Assembly: GCA_015956445.1 (NCBI GenBank)
Contig: WIUZ02000021.1
Span: 558,001 to 622,000 of the forward strand
Origin: Thelephora terrestris
Lineage: Eukaryota; Basidiomycota; Agaricomycetes; Thelephorales; Thelephoraceae
Direction: 5' to 3'
DNA length: 64,000 nt
Shown here: piece by piece, positions 9,127-28,992 of the stretch
Position numbering within the stretch: position 1 is the first letter of the stretch
Layout: the number at the start of each line of letters is the position of its first letter
Translations under genes and position numbers: made by a program
Notes under the pieces: model-generated
Databases searched by the model: none
What the model saw: only the letters and a program-made list of their open reading frames with translations
Told to the model about the DNA's origin: nothing

Positions 9127-9364
9127 GCAAGCGCTTTGCGCGTGCAAATCCGTCCGGCAGCGGTCGCTCAAGCGACTTAAAACCTCATTGCTTTTCATGC
9201 TGCCACCGTGACCTCCATTCAACGAGTCGATCACATAGGTCAAATCGTTCAAACCGTCCGAAGCTCTCGCACTCTCGTTGGGAGCTTTCTTCACATTGCT
9301 CTGACGGATTCGACCGTGATGAGTATCGTCGACACTGCAGCCACAGACACAATTCGCGTTCGCG
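9127..9364 (+). pseudogene. Relic copy of J-protein exon 4, left part
   Basis: Same orientation as the J-protein gene and clearly alignable with its bases from about 1801 to 2073: CGTCCGGCAGC, the His/Ser-coding stretch, and GACCGTGATGAG then TATCGTCGACACTGCAGCC. The relic has internal losses and no open frame of its own. It begins close to where exon 4 of the parent begins, suggesting the duplicate was truncated there. It is cut at 9364 by the DNA transposon; the last 7 bases, GTTCGCG (9358-9364), are the left target-site duplicate. The right part resumes at 28736. Confidence 0.75.
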
Positions 9365-9387
9365 TGGGGATGGGCAACGCGCACCAA
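9365..9387 (+). repeat. Left terminal inverted repeat of the DNA transposon
   Basis: TGGGGATGGGCAACGCGCAC, continuing CAA. Compared with the right end in reverse complement, the first 12 bases are identical, and the two then share a CACCAA block with small differences between. Confidence 0.82.
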
Positions 9388-12300
9388 AATTTTAGTCTCG
9401 ATCATCGTCGATTTTAACCCTCCAGTCCGCAACTCGGTTGGAGGTGTTTTAGTTTAATGTAGTCACTCGTTTGTGAGATGGATATGTCAGAAACCGCGCA
9501 ATCATAAATTCCCTGGAGTTTGGTTCAGACTAGATTTTCCCGCCCAGGCACCAGTGACAATGTTCACATATTTCACCGACCAAAAAATGTGAAAATCCAC
9601 CCAGCTATCGTGCTACGTGCACGAATGGTATCTTGAATTATTCCCTTGATGAGAATAGCACTGCGGAACCAGGGTTGGTTCGTTGCGGACTCGCGAGTTT
9701 GTTGAGGCGCGGTTACCATATATGTACATGCACTAGTTACATAATCAAAACATAAAGATCTGTGAACCGGGCGGAAAGGGGGATTGCAAAATTTCGCTCT
9801 GCACCACTACCCACTCAGCCCTCTACACTTCACAAAATGCCTCTTGTGGGCCGCCAGAGAACAAAACTTCAGAAGGCTCACACCGCCGCGATGGGGAGAC
9901 AACGGGGACTTCCGAGGTCTGATGCGAAGGCCGAGGTGATTGACCCAAAAAACCGCCGCCTCTTCTCGCTAGTGCGGAAGGAGCTCAGGAAGGAAAGAAA
10001 AGAAAAAAAACAGTTGGAGTATAACTTCCAAAGGAGGGAACAAACCAGGAAAATGCGGGAGGAGTTGGAGATGAAGAAGACAGAGGATCAAATCCAGGCA
10101 GCGACTGAAGCAGCCGAAGAAAGATATAAGGGAAGATTCGAAGAATGGAGAAAAGAGAAGGAATGCCTGAAGAAGAACATAGCGCGGCTCGATGCCCGCG
10201 ACCGTTGAGAGCCGTTGAGGATCCAACATGCAATCCAACAGTTCGAAAAACACAGCCATGACACCAGCGCGGTTCAGCCGGTCATCCGGTACGTCAAGGA
10301 CAAGCGAGGGGTTGTCCAGGACTGGGCGCGCAACGCGATCTTGACACTGGTTAACCAAGGGGTTCCGATGTCGAAGACGTGGGACGTGACGAGTGCGAAT
10401 GCGAAGGCGTTAGGCGTGGTGATTGTTGGGACGTGGAGCATCCGAACGAGCTGTCGAGTTGTTCGTGAGGGTGGTATTGCAGCCGGGCTCATGATTGTTG
10501 AATATGTCCTAATGTGTATAGGTCAGTGTTAAGCTCAGAGGCATGTTCGCTTTTTTATTCACCATTGATAGCGATGACTATGAGTGGCGACGGAACCTCG
10601 CATAAAAGCATCCAATACTCGTCGAGGTATGCTGTCGTCATCCCTCTGAACAGCCAACCACCAAAGGATTGCTTCCTTGGGATCACTCCCAAGGTAAACC
10701 ACACGACCGCCACACAATTCGAGGGATGGAAGGAGACGCTTCAACACCTCTGCGACAATTTCAACAAAAGCCCTCTTGGGAACGAGGCACCTGCAGACCC
10801 TACCCGTATGTGGCAGAAGTTGAAAGGATACCTCAGTGACCATGCGTCGGACCAGAAGAAGCTTTCCGCCGCGTTGGAGAGGTACCGGTGGGAGTGCGAT
10901 CGAGAGCTTCGGGGCCAAGCCGCGATGGTGTCGGACGAACATGTAGAGGAACGAAATCAGGTGATGGTGGAGAAAGGCAAGGAGCTGATGGAAGAAATAG
11001 GTGGTCCAGACTGTTATCTGGCGCTGCCTGTTGACGAGCAGATTCGATTCGCGAAGAGGTTGGTTCGCGAGGCGCAGATTTGCCTCGGTGAACAGGCCTA
11101 CCAACGGCTGTCGCCAGAAGAGAAGGAGGTTGTCGACTGGTGGGTCTGGTCCGGGTGTGCGATGCATAAAGATCTTAATGCGATGAAAGCGGGAGCAGAT
11201 AGAATGTCGAGATGGTGGGTTGAATTTGGGGAGGGAGTGGCACCGGTGGCCTTGATGAACAAGTTCAAGACTATCGCAGCAAAATCTGGATCAGTACCCG
11301 AAGGGAGCATCGTTGGACCTGGAGACAGAGGGGGAGTGAAGGTAACCGACCTTCTTGGTTCACTGGTTAAGCATAGGGAAACAAAGAAGGGGCATCAAGA
11401 ACGCTTCCGAGCCTTTTCGGTTGAATTCCTCGGGATCCCGCGGCCGGTTCAGTTCCCGGACACGAGCAACAACCGGTACCAGAGTCACGGCCTTGCCGCC
11501 ACTGAAATCCTCCACCACCTAGATCTCTACCTCGCATTCTTACAATTGGTAGCTGACTCGAAATCCCTGGGGAACGAACTAAATCACCTCGAACGGAACG
11601 TGCAAGCCGGCCTCAATGACCCTCCCACCCGCACGGAACTTTGCGTCCTATCCCTCTACTCCCAAGCGATCAGTATTCCATTTTCGCAGCACATCCGTAC
11701 ACCAAGCAATGCATCTTTGAATGGGTTAGACCTTGGCCCGGTCTACGACCGAATCAAACGACATATGGAGGCTGTGATCAACAATCCTGATATATTGCTT
11801 GGGCGTGGGGCCTCGCAGGAAGTTGGGACACTATATGGAGAAGAGTGGAACAACGCAGATGTGATTCAGTTCATTCGAGACAATGCAGATTCCTTCCCCC
11901 ACCTACAAAAAATTCTGATCGAGTTCTTTCGAGGTGCCCTCAAAACATGGAACGAGTTTGCCAAAGACATCTGCGGGAACCCCAAGGTGACAGAGGCTAC
12001 CCCAGAGCAACGCCGCCTCGCCTTCAGGCACCCAACAAATGATCTCAATGAGGGTGCACTTGGCACTCTCCGACAAGAGTATCGCGCATATCCCAACATC
12101 ACCTTCGGAATGGTCAACGCAAAACTGATGTGCAAGTAAGCTGCTTTAATTTATATATCAACACATGGTTTACCATGAACAAAGGCTAAATCCCGGTGTT
12201 GTCGAGTACACATCAAACCTTCCCCCCGCGTGCCGGCGTTACCTTCGAGGCGCAGCCCGAGAACAGGATCAAAACAAAACATATCAAAACTTCCTCCTCT

Positions 12301-13378
12301 CACAAGCACGTTGTCGAGTTGGCTGAGGTTGTAGTGAAGAGGTCTATAAGAACTCTTACTAGTCCTTCTTGGTTTACTTAGAAGCTAAGCGTTAACAACT
12401 AAGTAGGCTGGTTGAGAAGTCAGTTATCCTGACTATCAACTCCACAGGGTGGGCGGGGTTTCGTACTTTCTGGCTCCTTGTCCTGATGAGTTCGCTGAAG
12501 GAGGTTGTAGGTCCTTCAGATGTGTTCAGAGGGGTTCAGTAACCTTTATCACTACTGCACGTATATTCCCTGGTCCAAACACCTAGTAAGAATGTAAAGG
12601 GGGTTGCTGATCTTGATAAGAATGGAGTTCCTGATCTACGCTGATGATCGGGAATGGAGATAATGATGTGCAAAACTGATACGATCGAGGCTGTATATGA
12701 GGCTGTGAAGAAGGCTGTGTAGAATGCTGTGCACTGTGGCTGTGTAAGTGGCTGTGCTGTGGCTGTGTTAAGGGGGTGGCTGTGCTAATACTTCTGAGGC
12801 TGTGCTGATATGTCTGAGTAGTTTTGATGATCTGTCAATATACTGCTGAGGTACGTCCAAATGCTGCTGAGATACGTCTGATAACTTGATACTGCTGAAA
12901 CTTGAGAACCTGTCTTGATAAGATAAACTTCTTGATATGTCTGAGATACTGATACGTCGGATACCAATGTGGTACTATTACTAAATCTGTCTGTCACCTA
13001 GTCAGTCACTAGTCTGAGGTAGAATACTCTCTGCCTGAAGGGTCTGCCTTCAGCACTAACAGAGATAAGGATATTGCTACGTCACAGAGTCAAGTGTACT
13101 AAGCTTATTCAGAAGTCCAAACTTAGAACTTATTCACACAGAGGTGGGGCTCAAAATGGTATGTGATTACTGAAAATCACTCAACCACTCAGGCCTAAGG
13201 AGGTGAGGCAAAGTAGGGGTCTTGGTGAAAAGGGGTAGAGTAAAAGAGGGTGGGTTATAGAGAGAAGAGGGGATAGAGGGGGCAACTACTGGCCAGTGGC
13301 CAACAGCTGTTGGGTAGAGAGAGAGAGGGGTAAAAGGTTATGGGTGAGTTGCCTCTCCTTAGAACTGGGGGTGAGTTC

Positions 13379-13388
13379 TTTATATACT
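13379..13388 (-). promoter_or_regulatory. Putative TATA box of the solo LTR
   Basis: The minus strand reads AAAGTATATAAAG across this position, the only good TATA-like site in the LTR. It lies on the 3' side of the TTC/GAA arrays when read leftwards, the usual order for a U3 promoter. Confidence 0.45.
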
Positions 13389-13399
13389 TTTCCATGTGA

Positions 13400-13437
13400 G
13401 AATATTCTAGAACGTTCTATGTCCTTCTACTGTATTC
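13400..13437. promoter_or_regulatory. Palindromic heat-shock-element-like site
   Basis: GAATATTCTAGAACGTTC (13400-13417) is GAAnnTTCnnGAAnnTTC, four alternating 5-bp units, the canonical heat-shock factor binding pattern. TTC recurs every 10 bases at 13405, 13415, 13425 and 13435. Confidence 0.55.
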
Positions 13438-13520
13438 TATGGTAATTAATGGTGTGACAGGTGTCACAAGTGTGACAAAATGTCACAAAAGGTGTGACCG
13501 GTGTCACATGGGGTGTGATG

Positions 13521-13633
13521 TTCCGTCACCTTCTAGAACATTCCGGCAAGTTCCAGGATGTTCCGGCGCATTCCAGGGTGTTCCTGAACATTCTGTAACA
13601 TTCTGTAACTTTCCATGAGTTTCTTGTCCTTAT
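13521..13633. promoter_or_regulatory. Ten-base-periodic TTC array (step-type HSE-like)
   Basis: Eleven successive decamers starting at 13521 each begin with TTC (TTCC or TTCT): 13521, 13531, 13541 and so on to 13621. The second, TTCTAGAACATTCC across 13531-13544, also holds the alternating TTCnnGAAnnTTC form. Heat-shock factor is known to bind step-type sites, meaning nTTCn units separated by 5 bp, a 10-bp period. Functional binding is inference. Confidence 0.5.
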
Positions 13634-15203
13634 CTAATCTTATCTTATCTGATAAGACTGTTATCTAATCTAATCTAATCTTGCTGTGGTGAATTATCAT
13701 AAATAATGACATGGTTGTTCTCATGTCCGACAACGTGAAGACACTAAGACTGCCAAGGAAAAACGGGCCGCCACAGACAAACGCAAGAAGCGAGTCCAGG
13801 CTCGGACGGACAAGCTCAACACATTTAACCCAATCCTTAGTCTCGGGAAGTTGAAGAAGATGACAATGGATGGTGACAGATCAGAACGCATCAAGCAACA
13901 GTTGTCTTGGCACAAACGGATTGGCCGGGACGTGAATATCCCAGCGGGGTTTCATGCATTTCGCAAGGCAAAAGCCTGGGGAGCTATGGTCAAAGCCGTT
14001 CAGCGGCATCAACTTGGCACATCACACCGGAAACTCCCAGGTGTGCATTGAATATACCCGAAAATTCAGTACACACTGACTTTCCACAGAACCGGAGCAA
14101 ATCGATGAAAACTTCGACCCCTTTGTGGGCGTTGAAATCACACCGGACGTGGGCGACAGTGTTAATGACGACAATTGCTCTATTCCAGGAGGCGATGACG
14201 ACAACGACGGCGTTCGTTCCAACGTAGGCAGTGGCAGTGACGAGTTCCCCAACACAGATGACGACGATGATGTCGCCAGCAACACTGACATTGTTGCAGA
14301 TGAGGTTTCAGCCCACCACATCTCACTGGACCCAGTCGTTGACTCCGAATGTGAAGATATTGGTTGTGAAGGTGAGGATGCTGATGAAGGAGACGAGGAA
14401 CTAATGGAGAGCAATCATGCCTTCGCTGTCAAGCTCGGTGTCGTACCACCACGGTCAACCCGCGATGCTGGATGTCAGCTGCCTTCACCGTATACCGCTG
14501 GCTGTACCTGGTCAAGAGAAGACTGGTCGTGTTCATACGATGCTGTTTTCATGGCCTTCTGGTCACTGTACGAGCAATCGTCCCAAAATTGGCGCTGCAA
14601 TTGGAGGGAGCGTGCACTGGAGTGGAATGGACCACTTGGCGAAAATTTTGATCATCTCATCATCCTCGCAGCCACTCCAGTTAGCATCCAGGACCGCATG
14701 GGGTGGTTCTGCCGTTATCGCGATCGTCTTCGCAACCAGCTGTCCCGCAAAGACCCCGGGTCATTCCCACGCAGAGGACAAGTCCCAGCCTCGGCCAGTC
14801 GCATATTAGAACTCCTGTTCGGCAAAGCCACTGGACCATATCTCGAGCAACGCCTCATCTGCCGAAGTTGCGAGGAGTCATCTCGAGCAGAACGCGAAAT
14901 CTGTTTCCTCGCGTTGGGTGGTCTGCAAAAAGACAAAACTCAAGTCTGGCTACACACAATTTGGGCAGAGTTCGTCAATCGCTCCAAAACAGAAGCCGCT
15001 CATATGGGAACTATGTGTCCCCACTGCCGGGGTCCAAACGAGGTGCAGGATTTGAGGATGCCGGAAGTACCATGGATTTGGTTTGAGCACGAACGATCTT
15101 CCCCTGTGTGGCCTTCGCTAACCCTCGGATTTGACTCCCCAACCCAGCGGCTTAGGTACAGCCTACGCGTGATCATCTACGCCGGTGGAAACCACTTTAC
15201 CGT

Positions 15204-16207
15204 TGAACTGCTACTATCCGGGTGGAGTCGGGACACGACCAGAATAGCAGAAGTGGGGGTGAGGGGTCACCGGTTGTGCAGAGGTCGGGAAGGGGAGAGA
15301 AGCTAGACAGAGGAGAGGGAACCACGGTAGGTCGCGACGTTGTCGGGACGAGAAGGGAGAACTCCGTACTAGCAAACTCCTGCTAGACGATGACGATGGG
15401 CTAAGGGGCTAGTGGGCGATGGGCTAGTAGGCTAGGGGTCTATTGGAACTATGGGGCTAGTGGGATCGATGTCAGAGCGAGGAGCTGGAGGTTTTCGATG
15501 ATCAGGTCGTTCAAGCAGAAGGGAGAAGAGGTGTGAAGAGGCCCAGGGGTTTCTTGGTCGTTCAACTAGCTAGTACAGGGTATTTATAGGTAAAGACAGT
15601 GCGATCTACGCGAAAGAGATGGGAAAAGTAGCGAACAAATGGAGAAACGGTGGGAGAATAAGAACAGGTAGATAGAAGGGGATAAACGAGAGTCCGATGC
15701 AGGGTAGGGAGACAAACGGTTCATCGGGAGGCCGGAACGAGGCTGGGACAGGTCTTACCGAGAGGATGGAGCGATCGTGAGAAACAGGACCGAAAGGGGA
15801 AGTCTACGGGTTCGAGATCAAAAGATCGTAACCGGGCGGGAGAGCGGGAGCAGTCGAAGATGATTGGCGAGCGAGAGGGAACGAGTCGACACGTGTATAG
15901 ACTGAAGGGAACCGGACCGAGGGAGGGGACACGTCATCTCGGCGAGATAAGGGATCGGGAGACATCGGCCGATCGCAACATCACGTGCCGTTCGGGGAGG
16001 ACGGCCACGGAGGCATAAACAGCGTGCGATGACGCGCATCGAAGGGATCGCGGGAACGGCTCGATGATCGGGACGTCAAGTGGGCGTGACCCTCCTGTGA
16101 CCGATCGAGGGGTCGTCGGCTCGCGTAGTCAGTAGCTAGCGGGGTAGGGAGGTAGGGACTGGGGACTAGCACTAGATTCGACGGTCGCGCGAATAGACAG
16201 CGGGTCA
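15204..16207 (-). repeat. 3' LTR of the Ty3/Gypsy element
   Basis: 1004 bp, same length as its partner at 27286. On the minus strand a TATAAATA lies near 15590, in the expected sense for an LTR promoter. Confidence 0.93.
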
Positions 16208-16223
16208 TCTCCTCGAGACTTTT
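16208..16223 (-). other. Polypurine-tract-like site next to the 3' LTR
   Basis: The minus strand reads AAAAGTCTCGAGGAGA directly before the LTR. The purine run is short (GAGGAGA), but the position is right for plus-strand DNA priming. Confidence 0.45.
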
Positions 16224-16359
16224 AAAATTCAACCACCCTTGGTTGCGTGAGGTCGCCATGAGGCACACGTGAGGCGTCCGAATCGGGAAGGCCGCGCGGA
16301 AGCAAAACGACGAGATCGCGGTTTCGCCAGCTCATCACTTCTCTTTTCTGGTCCTCATC

Positions 16360-18298
16360 ATGTCTTCCTCTTCTAAATGGACTCCTCCTGCTGCTGCCAG
16401 CGACCCGATTATCCTGGCCGCTATGATACAGAGCGCCAAGGCGGTGAAGATCCCGGACGACGAGAAGCATCCCGATTGGGCTCGCCCCACGATCAAGGCC
16501 TTGGTGTCGGCTCAGGGACGTCCGGAAGCGTTCGAGCCCGTCTGGGCGACGGTCCTGCCGTTTTGGCGGCTCAAGGGGTTGGAGGAAAGGCTGGAGGAGG
16601 ATAAGGAGTTGCGGGACCCTTGGGCGATGCATGCGTTGGCTTGGCTGGTGAGTCGAGTCGCGACGTTTCGATGTGGCGGGAGGGAGGGACTAAATCGTCG
16701 AGTTTGTAGGCTCGTCATCGGGACGTGTGCCGTAGTTTTGGGCTCCCGCCTCTGCAGTTGATCGTCGACTGGGCAGACGCGGCAGAGTCCATTGGTTGGT
16801 TAACTCCGGGCTCGACCCCTTTTGGCGAGGATGCAGAGGAGGCTCCCGCACCCGTGATTAGTCGTCAATCGACGCTTCGACCGGTCGGGAGTGCTGGGGG
16901 GGCTACTATGCCAGCTATGAGTCGTCAGCCGTCTATCCAGGCGGTCAGGGGCACGGTGGGCGATCTGCCGCCTCCCACTAGTCGCGAGCCCTCCATTCAG
17001 CCAACTCCACAGGTGTCCGAGCGAGACGAGGACTTTGAGATGGAGGATACGCCCAGAAGGAGCGCTGGGGGTGGTCGGAACACGACGGGGGGTAAAAGTG
17101 CGCTCATCCCATACGTTGCCGTCCCTCCTCGTCCCCAGGCTACCAGAAGGGATGTTTCGGCCACAGAGTCGAACGTCGGGTCGAAGCGGGATCTCCCCAG
17201 CTCGCCGAGTAAGGAGGAGTCCACCTCAAAACGTTCGCGGACGACGGGTACCACCGGGAAGGGGAAGGGCGTTCAACGTGATCACGTCCCGGCCTTTCCA
17301 GCCATCGACCTCTCCGGCGAGACATATGAGGAGGAGGAGCAGCTGAATACGGTGAAGTTTCCGGGTGCGCGCAAATACGTGAGTCTTTAAACTTTTCGCG
17401 CTGTATCCGGGAGGTCTCATACTTCTTCCAGACGTGTGATCGGTGCGACTCGTCCTCGTCGAAGGTGGTGAAGGATGCGTGTCGTCCAACCTGGTGCCTC
17501 GCGCTCAAGGAGGAGCGTCCGACCTTCATCTGCGCAGCCTGTAGGAAGGACAAGAAGGGTTGCTCCTTCAAATGGATGACGTTCGGGATCACTGGTTGGC
17601 CCACGGTTACTCGCACGCCCGCGGGAGATCGTCGTCGCAAGAAGGAGGCCGCAGACCGTCGAAAGACAGAGGTTCCTACGAACGAGCTTGCCGACGACGG
17701 TGGGAACGTCCCGAAACCGAAGAGAGCCCCTCGCGTGAGGAAGACTGCGACCTCTGCGGCTTCTGAGCCCTCCCTCTCCGTTTCTACCCGCTCCAAGACT
17801 AAGGCTGCCACGGTAGGTTCGAATGTTGCGCTTCCCACAGTCGCGATGGCTGGTCTGTCTGTCGGGGGTCCCTCTTCAGGACTTCACAGCTGGGAGGTCG
17901 ATCTCCGTGAGTTCGAGCAGGAGTGGGGCCCGTCGACGGATTCCCCAGTTGCTGTGGAGCAACTTCGCGCAGCTCTTCGTTCCCAGCTTGCCAAGGAGCG
18001 CAACGAGGTGGACGAGATTGCTGATCTCGTCGCGAGTCGTCGGTACATTGCGAAGAGGATCCTGGCTAGGATGAACGAGGAGATCAATCGCCGTGGTGGG
18101 GAGGAGATCTGGGACTCCTCTGACTTTGCGTGTTCGGGAGAGGAAGGGGGCGACGGTGATGTGTCTGTGGGGGCTGTGAGTGACGACGAGGTGTTTTTGG
18201 ATGGTGGGGCTGCGGTGAGGGATGTGGGAGAGGAGCTTCGGGATGTTGACGACGTTGAGGACTCGGGTATGGTTGCGGAGGGGTCGCGAAGGGTCTGA
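16360..18298 (+). CDS. Antisense reading frame 1 inside the Ty3 element, apparently spliced; unknown function
   Basis: Runs opposite to gag-pol, between the pol end and the 3' LTR. ATG at 16360 begins MSSSSKWTPPAAASDP. GT...AG signals near 16648-16710 and 17380-17432 suggest three exons, so the plus strand seems to be the coding one here. Features: Trp-rich N-terminal part, repeated SRQ/SRE-P-S-I motifs, a basic SKRSRTTGTTGKGKG stretch, then a Cys-rich part (TCDRC ... CRPTWC ... CAACRKDKKGC) that could bind zinc, and an acidic C-terminus. It resembles Cys-cluster frames I associate with agaricomycete Ty3 elements; function unknown. Confidence 0.5.
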
Positions 18299-18539
18299 GG
18301 AATGGGGAGGAGGTCGCGCGAACTTTTTAGCCATCATCATCATGTACTACTAGTTTCTTGGCCTGTTTCTTTGCTGAATTCTCGTGTTTTCTTGGTCCGT
18401 AGCGTGTGGAGTGTGGTGAGACTCGTGGAATCGAGTTGGGTAAGGCGTGAGACGAGTTCTGCAAGGTGGGTACCTCCTCTGCGTCCTTCCAGCGGGTATG
18501 AACGATGATCGGGATGCGAGCGCGATATTGGGGACTGGC

Positions 18540-18558
18540 TCTCCTCGAGACTTTTGAA
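18540..18558. repeat. Second copy of the polypurine-tract/leader motif
   Basis: TCTCCTCGAGACTTTTGAA nearly repeats the 16208 site (one base differs in the first 19). It lies ahead of the second antisense frame, just as the first copy lies ahead of the first frame. Confidence 0.5.
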
Positions 18559-18821
18559 TACTGACCGTCCTCGGTCACAACAACGACGGGGTGAAATGCT
18601 GAAACGCCTGGAAATGGCGGGACGGTTGGCCAGCATTGAATCGGGAGCCCACCCGGCTCAGAGGCACGATAACACGGGCCGGACGGGATGATCGGGACGG
18701 TGCCGGCATCTTCCGAATCACGTGGAACACCGTACGGTCCGCGAGGACGGGGGAAAACGTCAGGGAGGGGGATCGAGTGAAAAAAAAAATTTTGAAGTCC
18801 ACCACCACCAGCACGACCGCA

Positions 18822-20132
18822 ATGCCTCTCATCGGGAATCACTATCTCACCGACGGCGACAATCCTGTGTGGATAAACAACCTTGAAGCTCGCGATCCCC
18901 CCACTGATCGTCCAGGGGTCGGCTTTCTCGACATCACTCTTGCAGATATCGTGGAACGCGTTCGGAGCGAGCGTGGGGATCGCGATGCCTTGGAAAGGGC
19001 CACGAGCTCAGATGCCCTCTTCGGATTCGCTATCAGGGCTATTGAGGACGATCGAGGTCGCCCAGGGCGTCTGGGGGAGGACAGGGTTTGGAGGCGCCTC
19101 CTAGAGATGGGTCTCGCTGCTGATGGGATGTCGGGAGACGTTCGTGAAAGCATCGCGACACGACAAGCCGTTCGTTATACCGCTGTAATCGCGAACGAGC
19201 TCATGAGGCGTCAGGAGGGACTCGAAAACAGGGTATGTCGCCGGGAGTGGTCGCGTCCGAGCATAGTGCTAACTCTTGAATGGTAGATTGAGGAAGTCCG
19301 TCTTCGCAATGAATGGTTGAGGATCCGCGTGGGAATGATGGACCAGGCTATGGACGAAATGGATCGGCACTACACCGCAGAGAGCGAGGCCGGGAGTCAC
19401 TATGTGAGTCCCCGCTGTCCCGCGCAGGGTCGTGACACTGACTGGAGCACAGGTCAGGGGTCTGAACGGCAGGATCACGTGGCTGGAGCAATCGCTCGCG
19501 GACTTCGTCGAGGCGTCTCTCATGCGTCGGGAGTACTATGGGGAAGTTGGGGTCCGTCGCGAGGAAGTCACCGCTACCGCGGAGGAGCCGGTAGCCGTTG
19601 GTGGGGTGGAAGATCCGCCTGTGGTTACGGAGTTCCACGCTCAGGCGACGGACGAGGACTTGGATATTGTTCTTGCGCACGGGGAGGATCGCGAGGAGGC
19701 TCCGGTGCCGCTCGAGCGCGCCGAAACCGCTGATACCACGGGGGGTGTTGACCATGTGAGTTCATCAACTTTGTCGCGACGTCCACTGGTTGACCTGGGG
19801 AATCGTAGGTACCAACGCCAGGTGCGACGGTCGTCGGGGCTAACACCATCCCGCAAGAGGGTCCACCGCCTTCCTATACACGCCACCGCAACTACGGGCG
19901 ACTCTCTCCTGCGGAATCAGACGTGGCCGCTCGTGTACGCATGCTGCAGCACGCTGTCGCCTACATGCTCCGTGCTCGTGAGATGTTCGCGAGATCCACG
20001 GGCAGATATGCGGGATATGAAGATGACCTTGACCCCACGGAGGACGCCATGATGAACGTGGTTGGGGAGACCTCGCGACGCATTCGGGCTGAGTTTGGAG
20101 AGGGTCGCGACCGCAGAGGTGACGGGGCATAG
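18822..20132 (+). CDS. Antisense reading frame 2 inside the Ty3 element, apparently spliced; unknown function
   Basis: ATG at 18822 begins MPLIGNHYLTDGDNPVW. The first exon reads to about 19232. Further GT...AG-bounded pieces follow, with RLRNEWLRIRVGMMDQAMDE and GRITWLEQSLADF, then an acidic stretch. It looks helical or coiled-coil and carries no domain I know. It is convergent with pol, whose end lies at 20351. The exon plan is tentative. Confidence 0.42.
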
Positions 20133-20350
20133 CCCAAGGTAAGAGTGAACTAGCTGGTCATTGATGCGCAACTGCAAAGACAAAGGGGTTGTAAAGATGA
20201 TGAAAGAAGAATAGCGGGCGAAGGAAACGTGGGTGTCTAGAAGGTAGATCGAAAGTGAGACAGCATTAGAATCTTAGAAGGGGGCGGAAAAAGTGAATAG
20301 AGAGGTGCATAGCTATAGTCCGGAATAAATACGAGACAGGTTGGTCTGTC

Positions 20351-23300
20351 CTAGAACGAAGGGGAGGGAACCTCGCGATAAGATCCAACAGCGGGGTCCA
20401 AGGAATCGAAGAAGTGGACATCTTCAGGGTCCTCGCTGGTGGAGTCCTCGTCGTCGGGAAGAGTCGCGAAGCTTGGGTCGCGAGTCTCTGTACGAGCAAG
20501 GTAGGGAATCAGACGAAACCCGGCTACCCTGAGCTGAGACTGGGCGCCGTCGAGTTCAGCGACGATGTAAGAGGGGCCAGCCTTCTTGCGAATGACGACA
20601 TAGGGGCCATTGTACCGGGGCTTGGTCTTGCGGTTCAGGGACTCTTCGATGCGGGAATTCCGAACGAGGACCAGAGATCCGGGCTTGAAATCGAAGTCTA
20701 CAATCTGTGAACCATGGCGCTTCTCAAACCGTTCTAGGTTCTTGATGCGGGAAGCGGTAACTGTCTCCTGCATCTTTTCGATATCTTCCTCACGCTTCGC
20801 CAGCTGACGAGCCCGGATCGCGATGAGTTCCTCGGTAGAGATGCCAAAGTCTTGGGCAGGGACGAGGTAAGTGGCTTCGAGAATGTCAAAGGGGAGGATG
20901 GGGTGGACACCGTGGACCATGTAGTAAGGGGAGAACCCAGTCGCCTTCCGCACAGTGACACGCTCGGCCCAGAAGACCTGCGGGAGAACCTCGCGCCACT
21001 TGGACTCGTTTCCATGACAGGTTTTCATGACAGCTTCACGGACATCAAAGTGCTTCGACTCGACAATCCCATTGGCTCGGGAGTTGTAGCCAGAGATGCG
21101 GATGTGCCGTATACCGTATCGCGATGCGAGGATGTCGAGGGCTGCGATATAGGAGGAACCGTTGTCGGTGACAATCTCGGCGATGCCACCCCAACGACAC
21201 AGGAGGTCCTGGAAGATGAAGTCGGCGATGACCTTGGCAGACTCGGAGGTGGTTGCCCGAGCTTCGGGATAAGATGTAAGCGCATCGCGAGCGTGGATGA
21301 CGTATCGGTAGCTTCCAGTCCTGGGCATAAGAAAGGTATCGATATGGGCTTTCCAAAACAAGCCGGGAACGGTCGGGACGGTTGGCGGGATGTAGAAATA
21401 TTCGGTTTGGCGCAGCTGACACTCGTGGCATGTCTTGACGTACCATCGGACGTTCTCACTGAGGCAGGGCCACCAGAAACGCAGAAGGAGGTTGGCTGTC
21501 GTCGCGAAGGCCCCCTTGTGGCCGAGGTTGTCGTGGGCAAACCGAATGAGGCGGAGGCGATCTGAAGGAGGAGGAACGAGCTGTGGGCTACCCTTGCGAT
21601 TCTTCCGGAACAGCTTGTTGCCAACGAGGAAGTAGTCTGTGGCTTGGCGGATGAACTGCCGGTAGTCGTGGTCAGAGAGGTCTGGAGGGCGCTCCAAGTC
21701 GGACAGGAACTTCTGTATCACGACGAGCCGTTCTTCGCGACGGAGGCCTTTGGGGGACTGGGGGATCGCGACACCAGTCTCAGAATCCGGTGAGGAGGAT
21801 CGCGACGGAGCGGCAGAGTCGTCGGGAGGTTCTGGAGAGGGTCGAGGGGAAGGAGAGGAGGCATGCAGAGCTGGTTCGGGTTCAATGGCGAATAATATAG
21901 AAGGTGCTGGGTCTAGGGGGGATCGAGGTGTGTTGACTTCAAGGAAGAATCCTGCGCCGAGGTCTATCCACTCTTCTAGTTCGTCCGGATCGTCGGGAGG
22001 CGGATCCTCAGGGGCGCGAGGACGACGGGAGAGACCGTCAGCTCCGGTGTGCTTGTCAGCGGGGACGTGGACGAGTTCGAAGTCAAAGAGCAGGATGGCG
22101 GATATCCATCGGTTCACGGCATCGTTGGGATGGAGCGTAGGGTTATTGAGCATCCCCTTGATAAACTTGGCATCCATTTCCACAGTGAGTTTCTTCACGC
22201 CGATGGTGTAAATCTGCGTCTGCTTGAGTGCGCGAAACAGCCCGAAGAGCTCGAGCTTGGCCTGGGAGTATCGCGACTTGCGATCGTTGAACGTGATGGA
22301 CCCGAATCGACTGGGGTAGCGCTTTCCGTCTTCACCGACCTGAAGGAGAATGAAACCAACACCGTTCATGCAGGAGTCGACGGCTAGGATGACTGGGCGT
22401 TGCGACTCGTAGTCGATAGGGCGTAGAGCTGGTGAGTTTACGATCGCGGCCTTGAGGTTCTCGATAGCTGCCAACTGCGGGGGTCCGATTTCGAAGGGTT
22501 CGTCTTTCCGTGTTAGCTGGATGAGGGGCCTTGCGACGAGAGTGTAGTTCTTGATGAAGATTCGAAGGACTCCACAGGTTCCCAGAAAAGCTCGAACCTC
22601 TGAAACATTTGTCGGGACTGGCCAGTCCTGGATGGCCTGGATTCGCGAAGGATCCGCGATACGACCTTCGTAAGTACAGATGTGTCCAAGGATGTCGGCC
22701 TGAGGTACTCCGATGAAGGCCTTCTTCCCGCTAAACGTAGCCCCGTAGGACTTGACGCGCTGGATGATCCGGTGGACTGCTTGGAAGTGCTCCCAGACGA
22801 ATCGTCGTATGCCTGGGTTTTCGGGGATAGTCTCATACGTTCCGTCGGGAAGCTCGTATCGCGACTTTGGGCCTTTGATGGGGACGTCGTCGGCGAAAGG
22901 CTGGGTCCAGTGTGGAATCTCGGGTCGAAGGATGTGGGATACGTCGCCCTGTAACACGGCTGGGGAGTTCGTCCAACCCATCGGTAGAACTGTGAGTCGG
23001 AACGCGCCGAGGGGAGTGTTGAACGTGGTCATGTCGCGAGAGTCGGGATGAAGCTGACGCTGGTCGAAGGAAACGTATAGGTCGAGCGTGGTGTAGATGG
23101 AGCGACCAGCGAAGTCTTCGGCAACCACATCGGTGTAGGGAGGCATAGCGGCGTTCTTGATCGTAACGGCGTTGAGAGGCTCCAAGGAATGAACCAGACG
23201 TAATGACTTCCCATCCTTCTTGTAGACACAGAACCATCTACTGTTGTAGGAGGAGGACGAGGGTTCGTAGACACCGGACTGCCACTTGTTCTCGATGATC

Positions 23301-24388
23301 TGAGTAACCTCAGAGAGGATCCCGCGAGGGATGGGGCCTTGTCTGAGTACCCAGGGCGTGTGCGCGATGTGCGGGATCTCGATGGGGGCGAAGTACTTGG
23401 GATCAAATGTCCCTCTCTCGTCGTCAGTCCATGCGAATGCCGTGTGATGGGTGCTAACGATCCACTCCGCGAGCTTCACTTCTTCTGGTAGCAGAAGTCC
23501 TTTGCCAAGCGCCATTTGCTTCCGGCGTTCGGGAGTGAAGCGGGGGACGGGGGCGTATTCGGGAGGGTGCGTAGGCAAGGGAGGCATGTCGGCAAGGGGG
23601 TTGGGATGGTCGTGCCGAATGATCCGAAAGTTCTCTGGCAGGGTGGTGGCGACGGGTCGAGTCTTGTTCGCTACTTTCTTGTACAGGAACGTGGATCCAC
23701 CGAAGGTTTCGCTAGCGAGCGGGATCTGGGAGTAGAGCTCCGATAACCACATGCTGGCTGCTCGTGCGGGAGTAAGAGGGTCGAGAGGGGGAGATGGTAA
23801 CTCTTCGCGAAGGGCTGCAAACTCTGTCGAAAGGTCGCGACGGGCGGGAGCGTTACCCATCGCGAGGAAGAGATGTTCTAGGCGTTCTGACGAAGTTCCT
23901 GCCACTTCGAGAGGTGGGTAACCGTCCTGGGTGCCTGCGTTGTTTTGGGGCGGTCCTTCCGTCACACTCGATCTGAGAGCTCTGTAGACCTCTAATGCCA
24001 GGTGGCGGGTGAGAGCTGGTGTCGATGAGGTGGTCGCGACGTCGGGAGGATCGGGGATATCGAGAGTGGAGCGATCCGGTGGGGTCTCAGGATGGCCATC
24101 TATAGAATCGTATCCTATGAAGAAAGAGGAGAAAGGGGTGGGGGCAGCATAGTAGGATGATATGGGGAAAGGAGCAGAGGAGAGAAAAGGAGAAAGGACG
24201 GAGGAAATCGAGACAAGAGGAGGTGGGAGAGGAGACATAGGTGAAACTGACGCAAGTTCTGGTAGAGGGGACCGGGACAGGGAGGTATCATAGGGTATCC
24301 GATGTTTTGCGGCCTGCAGCTTGGCGTGCACTGCAGACACTGGGAGTCGGTTGGGTCGGGACGCGGGAGTAGGTTCAGACGGCTCCAC
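20351..24388 (-). CDS. pol: Ty3/Gypsy pol frame: reverse transcriptase, RNase H, integrase
   Basis: 1345 codons on the minus strand. RT motifs: FCVYKKDGKSLRLVHSLEPL, LPMGWTNSPAVLQ and the catalytic box FADD in place of YVDD. RNase H follows (AVDSCMNGVGFIL, then TVEMDAKFIKGML). The integrase has an HHCC zinc domain (HDNLGHKG ... CHECQLRQ) and the DDE core (IDTFLMP, VTDNGSSY, ANGIVE). The tail has LVLVRNSRIE and a GPYVVIRK beta segment without a chromodomain. The first 200 residues are Pro/Ser-rich. Confidence 0.93.
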   Translation of the reverse strand: MEPSEPTPASRPNRLPVSAVHAKLQAAKHRIPYDTSLSRSPLPELASVSPMSPLPPPLVSISSVLSPFLSSAPFPISSYYAAPTPFSSFFIGYDSIDGHPETPPDRSTLDIPDPPDVATTSSTPALTRHLALEVYRALRSSVTEGPPQNNAGTQDGYPPLEVAGTSSERLEHLFLAMGNAPARRDLSTEFAALREELPSPPLDPLTPARAASMWLSELYSQIPLASETFGGSTFLYKKVANKTRPVATTLPENFRIIRHDHPNPLADMPPLPTHPPEYAPVPRFTPERRKQMALGKGLLLPEEVKLAEWIVSTHHTAFAWTDDERGTFDPKYFAPIEIPHIAHTPWVLRQGPIPRGILSEVTQIIENKWQSGVYEPSSSSYNSRWFCVYKKDGKSLRLVHSLEPLNAVTIKNAAMPPYTDVVAEDFAGRSIYTTLDLYVSFDQRQLHPDSRDMTTFNTPLGAFRLTVLPMGWTNSPAVLQGDVSHILRPEIPHWTQPFADDVPIKGPKSRYELPDGTYETIPENPGIRRFVWEHFQAVHRIIQRVKSYGATFSGKKAFIGVPQADILGHICTYEGRIADPSRIQAIQDWPVPTNVSEVRAFLGTCGVLRIFIKNYTLVARPLIQLTRKDEPFEIGPPQLAAIENLKAAIVNSPALRPIDYESQRPVILAVDSCMNGVGFILLQVGEDGKRYPSRFGSITFNDRKSRYSQAKLELFGLFRALKQTQIYTIGVKKLTVEMDAKFIKGMLNNPTLHPNDAVNRWISAILLFDFELVHVPADKHTGADGLSRRPRAPEDPPPDDPDELEEWIDLGAGFFLEVNTPRSPLDPAPSILFAIEPEPALHASSPSPRPSPEPPDDSAAPSRSSSPDSETGVAIPQSPKGLRREERLVVIQKFLSDLERPPDLSDHDYRQFIRQATDYFLVGNKLFRKNRKGSPQLVPPPSDRLRLIRFAHDNLGHKGAFATTANLLLRFWWPCLSENVRWYVKTCHECQLRQTEYFYIPPTVPTVPGLFWKAHIDTFLMPRTGSYRYVIHARDALTSYPEARATTSESAKVIADFIFQDLLCRWGGIAEIVTDNGSSYIAALDILASRYGIRHIRISGYNSRANGIVESKHFDVREAVMKTCHGNESKWREVLPQVFWAERVTVRKATGFSPYYMVHGVHPILPFDILEATYLVPAQDFGISTEELIAIRARQLAKREEDIEKMQETVTASRIKNLERFEKRHGSQIVDFDFKPGSLVLVRNSRIEESLNRKTKPRYNGPYVVIRKKAGPSYIVAELDGAQSQLRVAGFRLIPYLARTETRDPSFATLPDDEDSTSEDPEDVHFFDSLDPAVGSYREVPSPSF

Positions 24389-24456
24389 GAAGATGTGGGG
24401 CTCTTTGCGCGAGAGCGGGGGAGGTTGGGGCTCTGTCGCGACCGTAGTGCCGTCTG

Positions 24457-25230
24457 CTAATGAAAATTTACCGCTTCCTCGGGATTTGGTCGAGGAGACT
24501 TGCGGATTCGGGGCTGCGTCGCGAACACGTAGAGCTTTCCCGTTTTCGGATCTTTGACGCGGATCTCGTGCTTCCCTCCTGCGCTGCTGACTTCGGAGCA
24601 GCTGATGACATCGAAGAAAGGTCGTCCTAAAAGAACCTCGAAAGGCGCTTCTTCGACGACCTGGATCTGGAGATAGATAGTGATGGGACCGAGCTGAACT
24701 GGGTGGTCTTCAATAAGGCCTAGCGTCATGGTGGTGCTTGCGTTCGCCGACTCCATTGGCATAGCGCGACTCGCGACGATGGGTGCTTGCAATCGGGACC
24801 AGACATCCTTTCTCATCACCACGACCTGAGCACCTCCGTCGAGAATGCACTCGGGTTCGACACCCGGCCCAAACGTCGGGTGGATGACGCGAAGGGGAAG
24901 GGAGGAGGCTGCTGCGGAGGATGAGGAGTCGTACTTCACGAGGTCCAAGAAGACTGAGGGGGGTTCTGCATCGAAACATCCAGCTAGGTAAGCATCCACT
25001 TCATCGACTTCTACCGTGTTGGCCGAGATCTTCTTGCTGGTGACAATCTCCCTGACGTGCTTTCGAAGGTCGGGAGCGACGGCCAGAAGTTCGCGAGCGC
25101 TGAGGTTGACCTTGGAGTCGAGCACACGATGGACTATGTCGCTTGTCTTCACGTTGTGTTCGACTGGGGCCTGGAAGCGATACTTGGAGTCGTCTGGAGG
25201 TGGTCTAGGTGGATAGGAGACTGGTCGCAT
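24457..25230 (-). CDS. Ty3/Gypsy aspartic protease frame
   Basis: 257 codons, in a different frame from both gag and pol, overlapping the end of gag by 82 bases. The retropepsin-like core is CILDGGAQVVVMRKDVW, with DGG where D-S/T-G is usual, and a later VLLGRPFFDV segment. The variant DxG motif is common in basidiomycete Ty3 elements as I remember them. Confidence 0.82.
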   Translation of the reverse strand: MRPVSYPPRPPPDDSKYRFQAPVEHNVKTSDIVHRVLDSKVNLSARELLAVAPDLRKHVREIVTSKKISANTVEVDEVDAYLAGCFDAEPPSVFLDLVKYDSSSSAAASSLPLRVIHPTFGPGVEPECILDGGAQVVVMRKDVWSRLQAPIVASRAMPMESANASTTMTLGLIEDHPVQLGPITIYLQIQVVEEAPFEVLLGRPFFDVISCSEVSSAGGKHEIRVKDPKTGKLYVFATQPRIRKSPRPNPEEAVNFH

Positions 25231-26936
25231 CGGTCCTTGGGGGCGCTGTGTCTGGCGATCTCCCGCTCGAGCTCCAGGCTTTCCGGAGGTGTTGGCGGGG
25301 TTCGTCTGGGTCTGGGTAGGAGCAGGAGTGGGCTTGGACGGTCCCGACTCGCGACTGGCTGGGGTAGGGCCCGTAGGGGCAGGTGGTAATCGTCCATCCC
25401 TTCGGGGTGGGCCCGTCCTTCTCGCGATCTCGACACCGTCAAACCTGACTTCTTGGGGCCAGTCTGCAGGGCGTAGATCTGGGCGTTGCGAATGGAGTCG
25501 AGCTGGGCTTGCATCAGTTCGACTTGTTCTAGTGTCTCGTCGTCGTACTTGGAGAGGGGGTTAGGAGCGTAGCGGTTCTCGACGGGAGTGTGTGGTATGC
25601 TGGTAGTCGCGTAGTCCTCTTGGTCGGGATCGCATTCCTCCTCGAAGAGGTCGTACTGTTCGTCGGGATGGGCGTAATACTCTTCGGCAGGGGGGTCTAT
25701 GTCTATGGTGAACACACACTCGTCTGGGCCTTCTAAGAAGTTGGTTGCAAAGGCGTCGCGACCTTGTCCTTCGTCGAGGCCCTCTGATGTCCAGTAGTTG
25801 TCGATACGTTCGCGAAGGTTCTTGCCAGGGATGTTGCGTGGAGGGTAGCGGCCATCGGGCAAGGATAGCTTCCCGTAGCCGTTCTTGATGACTTTCCCTT
25901 GTACGAGGTAGTCCGCTGCGATGGGGCAGTCGCGAACGAAGTGGTCATGGGCGCTACAGAACACGCAGTTCTGGGTGTACTGCTCTGGGTTTAGGGTGTT
26001 CCACCGGGGGACGTTTTGAAATACTCCTCCCGGAGTAGTCTGGGAAGTAGCGGGACGAGGGAGGCGTGGTGGAGGGGCAGAAGGAGGGGGCCCACGGCGA
26101 GGCTGTACGTTCGCGGTGAAGACCCGAGTCAGGTTTGACATTGCCTGGATGAGCTCGCTGACGCTCCCCTGCTCTGCGGGCTCCGTCTTCGGGATGACGG
26201 CTCGAGAGTCGGGGTTGTCGTCGGGAGCGCGTGCGTTAAGGACGAACAACGCAGCCTCGTGGACATCAGAGAACTGGTAACCGTCGTCGGGAAGGACGTC
26301 AGGCTTCTTGATCGACAGTCGATGCAGGATTCGTGCGCGGATAGGCTGGGGGAATCCCCTGAGATAGGCGGCATCACGCTCCCGAGCGGTGTAGCGTCCC
26401 TTCGCAATGAGGTACGCGGAATAGGTAAGGAAGGACCGGTGGTAGTCGCCGAGGTCTTCGCGACTCATGTCCCGGTACCCGCGAGTGCGTTCCAGGAGGG
26501 TATCCAGGTCTCGAGTGGTCCAGCGGCGATCCGCTTGGAGGTGGGAGTACAGATGTCTAACTTCGATCTTGAACTGAGCCCAAGTGGCGGGAGTGTGAGC
26601 GAGGACGTCCGGGTGCAAGCAGGGAACGTGCTCCCAGGATTCAGCTGCACGACCGGCGTAACGCTGAGCCCAGTCAATCATCTGTGCGTCGTCTAGACCT
26701 GCGCGCTTGGCTACCTCCTCGAGCTCGTCAAAGAAGGTCTTGAAGCCTTGCTCAGTATCGGAGGCAAACCGGGGAGCCTCGCGACTGTGCGTCAGGGGCA
26801 TGTTGGCCGTCATTGCTGGATAAGATACGGGTGGGCGGGTGGGAAAAGTTGGTGTCGTTATCGGGAGGGCCTGCGCGAGTCGCGACGGGGAGTCTGGGGG
26901 AGTGGGCGATCGCGACGGCGGAACGGTGCCTGGCAA
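25149..26936 (-). CDS. gag: Ty3/Gypsy gag frame
   Basis: 595 codons. The capsid-like helical part spans about residues 60-230 (AGRAAESWEHVP, WAQFKIEVRHLYSHL, YLRGFPQPIRARIL), with a CCHC zinc knuckle CVFCSAHDHFVRDC about residue 325, the usual nucleocapsid signature. The N-terminus is Pro/Thr-rich. Confidence 0.88.
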   Translation of the reverse strand: MPGTVPPSRSPTPPDSPSRLAQALPITTPTFPTRPPVSYPAMTANMPLTHSREAPRFASDTEQGFKTFFDELEEVAKRAGLDDAQMIDWAQRYAGRAAESWEHVPCLHPDVLAHTPATWAQFKIEVRHLYSHLQADRRWTTRDLDTLLERTRGYRDMSREDLGDYHRSFLTYSAYLIAKGRYTARERDAAYLRGFPQPIRARILHRLSIKKPDVLPDDGYQFSDVHEAALFVLNARAPDDNPDSRAVIPKTEPAEQGSVSELIQAMSNLTRVFTANVQPRRGPPPSAPPPRLPRPATSQTTPGGVFQNVPRWNTLNPEQYTQNCVFCSAHDHFVRDCPIAADYLVQGKVIKNGYGKLSLPDGRYPPRNIPGKNLRERIDNYWTSEGLDEGQGRDAFATNFLEGPDECVFTIDIDPPAEEYYAHPDEQYDLFEEECDPDQEDYATTSIPHTPVENRYAPNPLSKYDDETLEQVELMQAQLDSIRNAQIYALQTGPKKSGLTVSRSREGRAHPEGMDDYHLPLRALPQPVASRDRPSPLLLLPRPRRTPPTPPESLELEREIARHSAPKDRCDQSPIHLDHLQTTPSIASRPQSNTT

Positions 26937-27264
26937 GTCGGTGGGTGAAGATAGTGGGGTACGGAAGAAGGTCTCGTCTTGTTCGGGATGCGGGAGAGGG
27001 TTGTTCGATGAGGAAGCGATCTGCCGGGCTACGATGGCGGAAACGACGTTGTCGAGTAGAGAGAGAGTTTGGCGAGTGTCGAGAATAGCCTGTCGGGCTT
27101 CCCGAACGTCTTGGTTAATCTCGGCTGGGGCTTGCAGAGCCAGGAGCCGAGCGCGAGATCGCGTCTGAGGGGGGGAGAAATCTAGCGGGATAACCTTCTG
27201 CGCACGACCTCGTCCGCGGGGTGGAATGGCTGATAGCTTCTAGCCAGAAGTGACCTCTGAACCG

Positions 27265-27282
27265 GTCTCGGCGTGGGTTCCA
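27265..27282 (-). other. Primer binding site of the Ty3/Gypsy element
   Basis: Three bases inside the 5' LTR, the minus strand reads TGGAACCCACGCCGAGAC. Starting with TGG it would pair with a tRNA ending in CCA; I cannot name the tRNA without searching. Confidence 0.6.
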
Positions 27283-27285
27283 AAA

Positions 27286-28289
27286 TGAACTGCTACTATC
27301 CGGGTGGAGTCGGGACACGACCAGAATAGCAGAAGTGGGGGTGAGGGGTCACCGGTTGTGCAGAGGTCGGGAAGGGGAGAGAAGCTAGACAGAGGAGAGG
27401 GAACCACGGTAGGTCGCGACGTTGTCGGGACGAGAAGGGAGAACTCCGTACTAGCAAACTCCTGCTAGACGATGACGATGGGCTAAGGGGCTAGTGGGCG
27501 ATGGGCTAGTAGGCTAGGGGTCTATTGGAACTATGGGGCTAGTGGGATCGATGTCAGAGCGAGGAGCTGGAGGTTTTCGATGATCAGGTCGTTCAAGCAG
27601 AAGGGAGAAGAGGTGTGAAGAGGCCCAGGGGTTTCTTGGTCGTTCAACTAGCTAGTACAGGGTATTTATAGGTAAAGACAGTGCGATCTACGCGAAAGAG
27701 ATGGGAAAAGTAGCGAACAAATGGAGAAACGGTGGGAGAATAAGAACAGGTAGATAGAAGGGGATAAACGAGAGTCCGATGCAGGGTAGGGAGACAAACG
27801 GTTCATCGGGAGGCCGGAACGAGGCTGGGACAGGTCTTACCGAGAGGATGGAGCGATCGTGAGAAACAGGACCGAAAGGGGAAGTCTACGGGTTCGAGAT
27901 CAAAAGATCGTAACCGGGCGGGAGAGCGGGAGCAGTCGAAGATGATTGGCGAGCGAGAGGGAACGAGTCGACACGTGTATAGACTGAAGGGAACCGGACC
28001 GAGGGAGGGGACACGTCATCTCGGCGAGATAAGGGATCGGGAGACATCGGCCGATCGCAACATCACGTGCCGTTCGGGGAGGACGGCCACGGAGGCATAA
28101 ACAGCGTGCGATGACGCGCGTCGAAGGGATCGCGGGAACGGCTCGATGATCGGGACGTCAAGTGGGCGTGACCCTCCTGTGACCGATCGAGGGGTCGTCG
28201 GCTCGCGTAGTCAGTAGCTAGCGGGGTAGGGAGGTAGGGACTGGGGACTAGCACTAGATTCGACGGTCGCGCGAATAGACAGCGGGTCA
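27286..28289 (-). repeat. 5' LTR of the Ty3/Gypsy element
   Basis: 1004 bp, matching 15204-16207 apart from one base that I noticed. Confidence 0.93.
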
Positions 28290-28706
28290 CCGTGCGCTTC
28301 CGTGACCGGTCGGACGGATGGTGGAAGCACGACGGTCAGATCGCCTCAGGAGTCCCACAATCTGACGACATCCGGTCCGAGGCGGAACTTCTCACAAACG
28401 GCATGCGTTTTGCCTGCACATTTATTTATCGTCACAATGACAATTGAATCCTGGTCCGTGTTTTCTCTCCCGCTTCAGTGCTGATCTACCCTCGTTACCC
28501 TCTCCCTTGTTGTTGATCTTCACTCACGGCCACTTACCCCGTGTATCATTACCAACGAAAACCCCCCTGCCACATGCTATAGTAGTTAGCCTGTAAACTC
28601 CGCACACTGTAGTTGTCGTGTCTCATATGTGGAATTTATTAACTCGAGCGCGCCTCGGAGGAGCCTTCCCCTGCGGCAAACAAGTGTAAACAAATTACGA
28701 TCAAAC

Positions 28707-28728
28707 TTGGTGGGGCTGCCCATCCCCA
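28707..28728 (-). repeat. Right terminal inverted repeat of the DNA transposon
   Basis: Reverse complement of this end begins TGGGGATGGGCAGCCCCACC, matching the left end at 9365. The 7-bp duplicate GTTCGCG follows at 28729. Confidence 0.82.
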
Positions 28729-28735
28729 GTTCGCG

Positions 28736-28893: not shown

Positions 28894-28910
28894 CTGTCGG
28901 CGGAAAAAGA

Positions 28911-28992
28911 GGTCCTACCCGGGATCGAACCGGGGTTACGGGAAATTGATCGAAGTCAGAATCCCGTGTGATAGCCGCTACACTATAGAACC
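28911..28992 (-). tRNA. tRNA-Gln (anticodon CTG), with short intron
   Basis: Minus strand, 82 nt. The acceptor stem GGTTCTA pairs with TAGGACC. The D-arm TAGTGTAGCGGCTATCAC matches the form usual in fungal tRNA-Gln. The anticodon stem is CGGGA/TCCCG with CTG at 28959-28957. An 11-nt intron (CTTCGATCAAT) fits the standard place just after the anticodon-flanking A. The T-arm is CCCGG TTCGATC CCGGG. The D-arm also resembles tRNA-Glu, but the CTG loop assigns Gln. Confidence 0.85.

Follow-up and report, generated by a model that had tools for sequence, protein, structure and literature searches.

Does the genome of Thelephora terrestris contain a transposon whose transposase ends in a deubiquitinase-like domain? 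This question was raised by a 64,000-nucleotide stretch of DNA (the window), which lies on contig C14 of a 40.6-Mb, 60-contig genome. The original prediction had described there a gene joining a transposase to a domain like that of ubiquitin-specific proteases (USPs), between terminal inverted repeats (TIRs) flanked by a 7-bp duplication. By looking for inverted termini next to a repeated sequence, and by aligning a paralogue, we delimited a TIR transposon at window 9365-28728. It is probably a broken copy of an autonomous cut-and-paste family, whose four-exon gene would encode a D...D...CxxH...E core and a putative C-terminal papain-like isopeptidase of the USP/USPL1 type with a two-Cys-pair zinc finger, a domain probably exchanged with Helitrons of the same genome.

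The TIRs and the 7-bp duplication of the prediction were confirmed. The left TIR, TGGGGATGGGCA, occupies 9365-9376 on the forward strand, and the same sequence lies inverted at 28717-28728 on the reverse strand. They are flanked by exact copies of a 7-bp target site duplication (TSD), GTTCGCG, at 9358-9364 and 28729-28735. A paralogue on contig C2 (L009) aligned to window 9365-12311, 13733-15203, and 28289-28730 at 98.6-99.5% identity. Because this alignment begins at 9365 and reaches 28730, it fixed both element ends independently. L009 is 4,849 bp long and has a duplication of its own, GTCCTTC.

A genome search with the core region returned at least 18 matches at no fewer than 17 loci, the window included, and a second query recovered the same 17 loci. 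These loci form two groups with cores that are ~36% identical: group A, consisting of the window copy and L009-L014, and group B, consisting of L015-L024. Both TIRs were present in 11 of the 17 copies, and 10 of these 11 were flanked by an exact 7-bp duplication of a different sequence in every case, which places the duplication beyond chance. TIRs combined with a fixed-length duplication at differing sites are the mark of a cut-and-paste TIR transposon. The remaining two-TIR copy, L015, had flanks that did not match. Only the left end was found in L010 and only the right end in L021, and neither end was convincing in L013, L022, L023, or L024. The most complete copies measure 4.8-4.9 kb, with TIRs of ~12-18 bp that start with TGG. 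The C-terminal domain followed the core, in the same order, at 14 of the 17 loci; L013, L022, and L023, which lack it, each match part of the core only.

Some further observations concern these copies and their surroundings. Two group B copies, L015 and L020, are 5.8 and 6.2 kb long rather than 4.8-4.9 kb and probably hold further inserts. At another locus (L038, position 156; C7:187555), 39 bp are 97% identical to the left end of the element while the rest is absent, and no right end was found within the 3 kb read; this match may be a relic, or it may belong to a short non-autonomous relative. A tRNA-Gln gene lies uninterrupted at window 28909-28992 on the reverse strand, 180 bp outside the right TIR. 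It had suggested targeting of tRNA genes, an idea we rejected. No tRNA gene was found at any of the 16 other copies (ARAGORN with the bacterial code, by which some fungal tRNAs might be missed), so the neighbouring tRNA-Gln gene is probably a coincidence. Two viral-contig scans and one genome-contig scan returned no relatives beyond this genome; the collections were viral and prokaryotic and thus uninformative on fungal spread.

The predicted gene span was borne out: the reading runs from an ATG at 9837 to a stop codon ending at 28447, and all the motifs that the prediction named were present. These are DGTS (from 10589), HKDLN (11165-11179), and NEGALG (from 12047) in the core, and WSCSYDA (14524-14544, Cys codon at 14530), GGNHFT (15184-15201, His at 15193), and WWKHDG (28319-28336, Asp codon at 28331-28333) in the C-terminal domain, all on the forward strand. 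The window copy is, however, broken. It carries a premature TGA in exon 1 (10206-10208) and two insertions, all three of which are absent from L009. In L009, removal of introns of 56, 49, and 49 bp leaves four exons in one open frame with a predicted product of 1,313 amino acids. For the second intron, seven choices keep this frame open; the 49-bp version was taken and its exact ends are uncertain, and a 188-bp version was rejected as it breaks the frame. Residue numbers in the original prediction are 2 above those of the L009 model, in which the residues discussed below are C1039, H1260, and D1276.

With ends transferred from the L009 model, exon 1 (9837-10515, forward strand, as are all exons) encodes an N-terminal coiled coil and a basic region. 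Exon 2 (10572-12135) encodes the candidate DDE core, and exon 3 (12185-14040, start uncertain) a linker, a homologue of which was found at 14 of the 16 fetched loci, L009 included. The first part of exon 4 (14090-15203) encodes an acidic linker followed by the C-terminal cysteine-protease-like domain with Cys 14530, two CxxC pairs, and His 15193, and its last part (28290-28447) runs from WWKHDG to the stop codon. None of the four regions, namely the N-terminal exon, the core, the linker, and the C-terminal domain, gave a Pfam match above the curated cut-off.

A core alignment was built from 13 of the 17 loci; L015, L016, L023, and L024 were left out because of a flagged stop or short length. 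In the numbering of the window reading frame, D26, D109, D113, C215, H218, D220, E498, and E513 were invariant among the sequences covering them. The invariant residues of exon 2 include the Asp of SGD at 10589, the Asp of SDHA at 10838, the CxxH of CAMH at 11156-11167, and the Glu of NEG at 12050; the Cys and His of CAMH were invariant in all 15 sequences that cover them. The original prediction had taken the Asp of HKDLN (its D429) as the second catalytic acid. That residue is probably not catalytic, since it lies in an invariant CAMHKDLN that looks like a C/DxxH signature, and the invariant Asp of SDHA is probably the better candidate for the same reason; as D220 is invariant too, conservation alone does not single out the second acid. 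Comparable motifs, TDASGECRK and CYAHQVNL, occur in a hAT of the same genome (L036). The core profile gave no hit in PDB, and a single-sequence structure model of the core (528 amino acids) had a pLDDT (predicted local distance difference test) score of 39.8 and was unusable. Resemblance to an RNase-H fold, which the original prediction proposed for this region, is thus at the level of motifs, and it is the TIRs, the duplications, and the conserved acids that support a function as a transposase.

We then turned to the C-terminal domain. The prediction had named C1041, H1262, and D1278 as its catalytic residues. They fall in the motifs SC(S/A)YD, xHF, and Wx(Y/H)D, respectively, and all three were invariant in the 15 aligned sequences (11 from the transposon family and 4 from Helitrons). 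These protease alignments did not include L019 and L020, in which the reading frame of the domain is broken. Two Cys pairs lie between the Cys and the His, and the resulting order, Cys, two Cys pairs, His, and Asp or Asn, which is that of USPs, was found in the 15 sequences. The order of catalytic residues in Ulp1 and OTU proteases differs from it. For the protease domain, the ratio of nonsynonymous to synonymous substitution (dN/dS) could be computed for 8 of 10 pairs in group A, where it was 0.14-0.28, for all 10 pairs in group B (0.11-0.23), and for 3 of 6 pairs in the Helitrons (0.16-0.19). These values are rough, as synonymous substitution approaches saturation in many of the pairs. L019, L020, and L024 were left out of this calculation, and L013, L019, L022, L023, and L024 out of that for the core. 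Ratios in this range clearly indicate purifying selection, with amino acid replacement restrained.

A genome search with the domain alone revealed that it also ends the Rep-helicase proteins of Helitrons at four loci (L025-L028). The Pfam analysis was run in full on one of the four, L025, whose 2,484-residue frame contains DUF6570, Helitron_like_N (E 2.2e-26), and PIF1 (E 1.4e-14). A Rep (HUH) domain and a PIF1-type helicase, which together identify a Helitron, are thus present in one protein at L025, and by DNA similarity to it at L026 and L027, whose frames comprise 2,400 and 2,406 residues. In these three Helitrons the frame is single and unbroken. In L028, a stop codon lies between the domain and a preceding frame of 1,516 residues, whose likeness to the others was judged by eye only. 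When domain profiles were compared by hhalign, group A matched the Helitrons with E 1.3e-25 and group B with 7.2e-18. By this measure, the two versions of the domain are clearly homologous. Among the genome matches listed for the domain, all the strong ones fell within the TIR transposon family or Helitrons. There were also two weak matches, at C6:355814 (E 0.2), where an unrelated long frame runs on the opposite strand, and at C56:832958 (E 0.03). In an unrooted tree, the Helitron sequences formed one clade with support of 1.0. As the split between groups A and B was seen in the core and the protease alike, the fusion most likely predates that split.

The Helitron termini were also visible. 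A 3' end, GACTCGGGGAC..GGCGCCCTGCGCCGTTACGAT (about 9410-9443 in L025), is conserved and was also found in L026, and it begins with the reverse complement of a sequence near the 5' side, TCCCCGAGTCC (about 79-90 in L025). These ends recall the asymmetric terminal inverted repeats that the available text of PMC5148889 reports for Helitron2.

Is the domain then a USP-type protease that belongs to these elements? The protease lies in a different exon from the core, as would be expected of a separate host gene caught between the element ends by chance. Against this stand the constant order at 14 of 17 loci, the unbroken Helitron frames, and the confinement of the strong matches listed to two kinds of element; we give such a capture hardly any credence and rejected it for practical purposes. 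As to fold, a profile of the 15 sequences searched against PDB retrieved USPL1 first (E 0.0075 and 0.014), with a ubiquitin carboxyl-terminal hydrolase next (E 0.22); the remaining five of the eight hits were unrelated. A trimmed profile of the same sequences retrieved USPL1 with E 0.0082 and 0.011. In each of these two overlapping profiles the three best of eight hits were USP-family proteins, and in the alignments of the full profile the His and Asp were in register with them. In addition, the second CxxC, the His, and the Asp lined up with six host USP fragments in an hhalign comparison. In Pfam, 3 of the 15 members matched Peptidase_C98 (the USPL1 family) and 2 matched UCH (C19); the best scores came from L014 (UCH, E 0.0024, 18.0 bits; C98, E 0.067) and L017 (C98, E 0.042, 13.9 bits; UCH, E 0.19).

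Several results weigh against a USP assignment. Neither the best UCH match (18.0 bits against a curated cut-off of 23.9) nor the best C98 match (13.9 against 27) reached its threshold. Ten of the 15 members were scanned singly with full output, and eight of these matched neither family: six had no Pfam match and two had unrelated weak ones. When group A, group B, and the Helitrons were each profiled alone, no USP was found in PDB, and hhalign against the host fragments gave E 0.022 with a probability of 2% (the core profile, as a control, gave E 0.19). The first Cys pair varies in spacing, from CxxC in group A to CxxxC in the Helitrons and CxxxxC in group B, and the second pair, generally CxxC, has lost one Cys in L011 and is CxC in L012. 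L020, which is broken and lies outside the alignments, has Asn in place of the Asp. The SC(S/A)YD motif differs from the usual Cys box of USPs, and from that of USPL1. Finally, a single-sequence model of the protease exon (245 amino acids, minus the last 50 residues) had a pLDDT of 33.0 and was unusable. The weak match scores leave some room for a cysteine protease or zinc-binding fold of another family in which the Cys-His-Asp order arose by convergence. We consider this rather unlikely in view of the USP-family hits at the head of both PDB searches and of the registers described above. It is less likely still that the domain has a USP fold and serves only to bind ubiquitin or SUMO, or has a structural role. 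Catalytic activity is only predicted, which would accommodate such a role, but Cys, His, and Asp remain invariant in 15 of 15 sequences across three lineages in which many pairs approach synonymous saturation. A USP/USPL1-type protease is therefore likely, not established. Of the fusion originally predicted, the transposase-like protein with a Cys-two Cys pairs-His-Asp tail holds, and the USP label lacks a match at any curated cut-off or in the subgroup profiles. As for a source, a genome search with Pfam C98 gave no match and thus revealed no cellular USPL1 from which the domain could derive; 35 UCH exon matches were present, all away from these elements.

A further alternative concerns the core and is compatible with the USP-type fusion. 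The core could belong, as a divergent branch, to a superfamily already known (hAT, P, Kyakuja/KDZ, or similar) with only its tail being new, and we put this just short of an even chance. In its favour, CAMHKDLN, which carries a hAT-type C/DxxH signature, resembles the CxxH...NL of the host hAT L036, and the consulted part of PMC12730594 reports 7-bp TSDs for both Puccinia hAT7 and Kyakuja. According to the accessible text of PMC8869645, the C/DxxH signature is common to several superfamilies. Typical hAT elements have an 8-bp TSD (5, 6, or 7 bp in named subgroups). None of the 13 core sequences matched a Pfam transposase. Nor did any match the hAT dimerisation domain (PF05699), which was likewise absent from the window pieces, from a 97-residue linker stretch of L009, and from the protease domain. 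The original prediction had proposed a comparison with KDZ and Dada elements, and neither offered a home for the family. The KDZ domain (PF18758) was not found in any of the 13 cores, though the genome has 108 KDZ matches (as an aside, there were only 3 hAT-dimerisation-domain matches). Kyakuja shares the 7-bp TSD, but its termini are described in the same part of PMC12730594 as CA..TG without TIRs, whereas those of the present family are TGG..CCA with TIRs. Dada elements are reported to have 6-7-bp TSDs, which fits, and to insert into small RNA genes, which does not: of tRNA genes, the only kind searched for at the 16 other loci, none was found there. An hhalign comparison of the core with one host hAT and one host KDZ fragment revealed no relation, with low power as the templates were single sequences. 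As there was no KDZ or hAT Pfam match, no likeness to Kyakuja termini, and no tRNA-gene targeting, we did not file the family under hAT, KDZ, or Dada; nor do we claim for it the undescribed superfamily that the original prediction had thought possible. Membership in the broad C/DxxH group that includes hAT seems most likely.

How might such a protein work? The duplications show that the element ends are inserted with a 7-bp stagger, and the core would be the part that cuts and joins them. In the most likely mechanism, the putative protease would act in cis and strip ubiquitin or SUMO either off the transposase itself or off proteins located on its DNA. The transposase could thereby escape degradation or SUMO-dependent silencing.

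The two insertions that disrupt the window copy are themselves mobile sequences. The smaller, 1,421 bp within exon 3 (12312-13732), has TGTCG...CGACA ends and is flanked by a 4-bp duplication, ACGT (12308-12311 and 13733-13736). It had at least 40 genome matches including its own copy, of which 36 of those listed were full length, and we therefore regard it as a solo-LTR-like repeat (LTR, long terminal repeat). The larger is a Ty3/Gypsy LTR retrotransposon of 13.1 kb, inserted in exon 4 at 15204-28289 on the reverse strand with a CCGT TSD (15200-15203 and 28290-28293). Its pol (20351-24388, reverse strand) has Pfam matches to reverse transcriptase, RNase H, and integrase, and an open reading frame (ORF) at 25149-26936 on the same strand was named gag-like by position, its zinc-knuckle matches being at E 0.1-0.16. 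The LTRs (15204-16207 and 27286-28289) differ at a single place in 1,004 bp (16038), so the insertion is recent. Four ORFs antisense to gag-pol lie in the interval from the end of pol to the LTR (16725-20052, forward strand), none with a significant Pfam match. The protein encoded at 17465-18295 had at least 39 genome matches, its own copy included, with 25-100% identity. An antisense gene is thus apparently conserved as a component of a retrotransposon family.

The recurrence of Ulp1, OTU, VTD, and, in one mention, C19 domains indicates that ubiquitin/SUMO proteases appear repeatedly on transposon proteins. In this genome, a single domain is attached to two mechanistically unrelated transposition enzymes and is under purifying selection in both. 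Fusion of the same tail to an unrelated transposon class in one genome suggests that different mobile elements share one host-handling tool. With this matched pair one can ask directly if transposition benefits from the protease, and if the protease acts on the transposase or on the host. Should the fold be confirmed, a USPL1-like branch would be added to the transposon-borne deubiquitinases in fungi. As far as our literature search goes, with most subscription journals outside it, no USP-type domain has been described on a fungal transposase or a fungal Helitron, and the family in fungi, the fusion to such a core, and the sharing with Helitrons are new. The words 'ubiquitin', 'peptidase', and 'OTU' are absent from the main text of a paper on basidiomycete Helitrons (PMC4289320), and the accessible part of PMC10799480 held nothing on point.

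The closest solved structure, the SUMO isopeptidase USPL1 (C98; PDB 7zju), has His and Asp in register with the present domain and a preceding CxxC, but it matches at E 0.0075 only and is not a transposon protein. A USP-type protease on a transposase is not a new idea, as the available text of PMC2836005 mentions a Trichomonas vaginalis Transposase_11 protein with a Peptidase C19 domain. This is likewise a C19-type (USP) deubiquitinase on a DDE transposase; it differs in having an IS5-like core and a protist host, and within that text it is a single mention in the discussion with no link between C19 and Helitrons. The same source describes Ginger1 transposases with a C-terminal ubiquitin/SUMO protease, OTU or Ulp1, in line with the earlier remark that such proteases occur on transposons, but the protease folds are others and the core is like a Gypsy integrase. 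In animal Helitrons, as presented in the part of PMC9741609 available to us, the Helitron protein also carries a deubiquitinase domain, VTD or OTU, and VTDs are active on ubiquitin; these belong to other families, VTD with an unusual Asp-x-His active site, and the hosts are animals. Puccinia hAT7 shares the 7-bp TSD and a C/DxxH-type core (PMC12730594, as far as available), whereas the present family has neither a hAT dimerisation match nor an hhalign relation to one host hAT fragment. The nearest parallel for exchange is the TET/JBP dioxygenase, an accessory enzyme that, by the available text of PMC12730594, moved among unrelated classes of fungal transposons (11 lineages including Helitrons), and whose capture its author thinks aids escape from silencing; it is encoded by a gene of its own rather than being a protease fused to a transposase. 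We tentatively raise the broader possibility, which we hold to be less likely than not, that a superfamily of fungal cut-and-paste transposons without an earlier name and a Helitron lineage share an exchanged USP/USPL1-type cassette as a general counter-defence against ubiquitin/SUMO control. If true, this cassette would be a protein-level counterpart of the TET/JBP exchange in fungal transposons.

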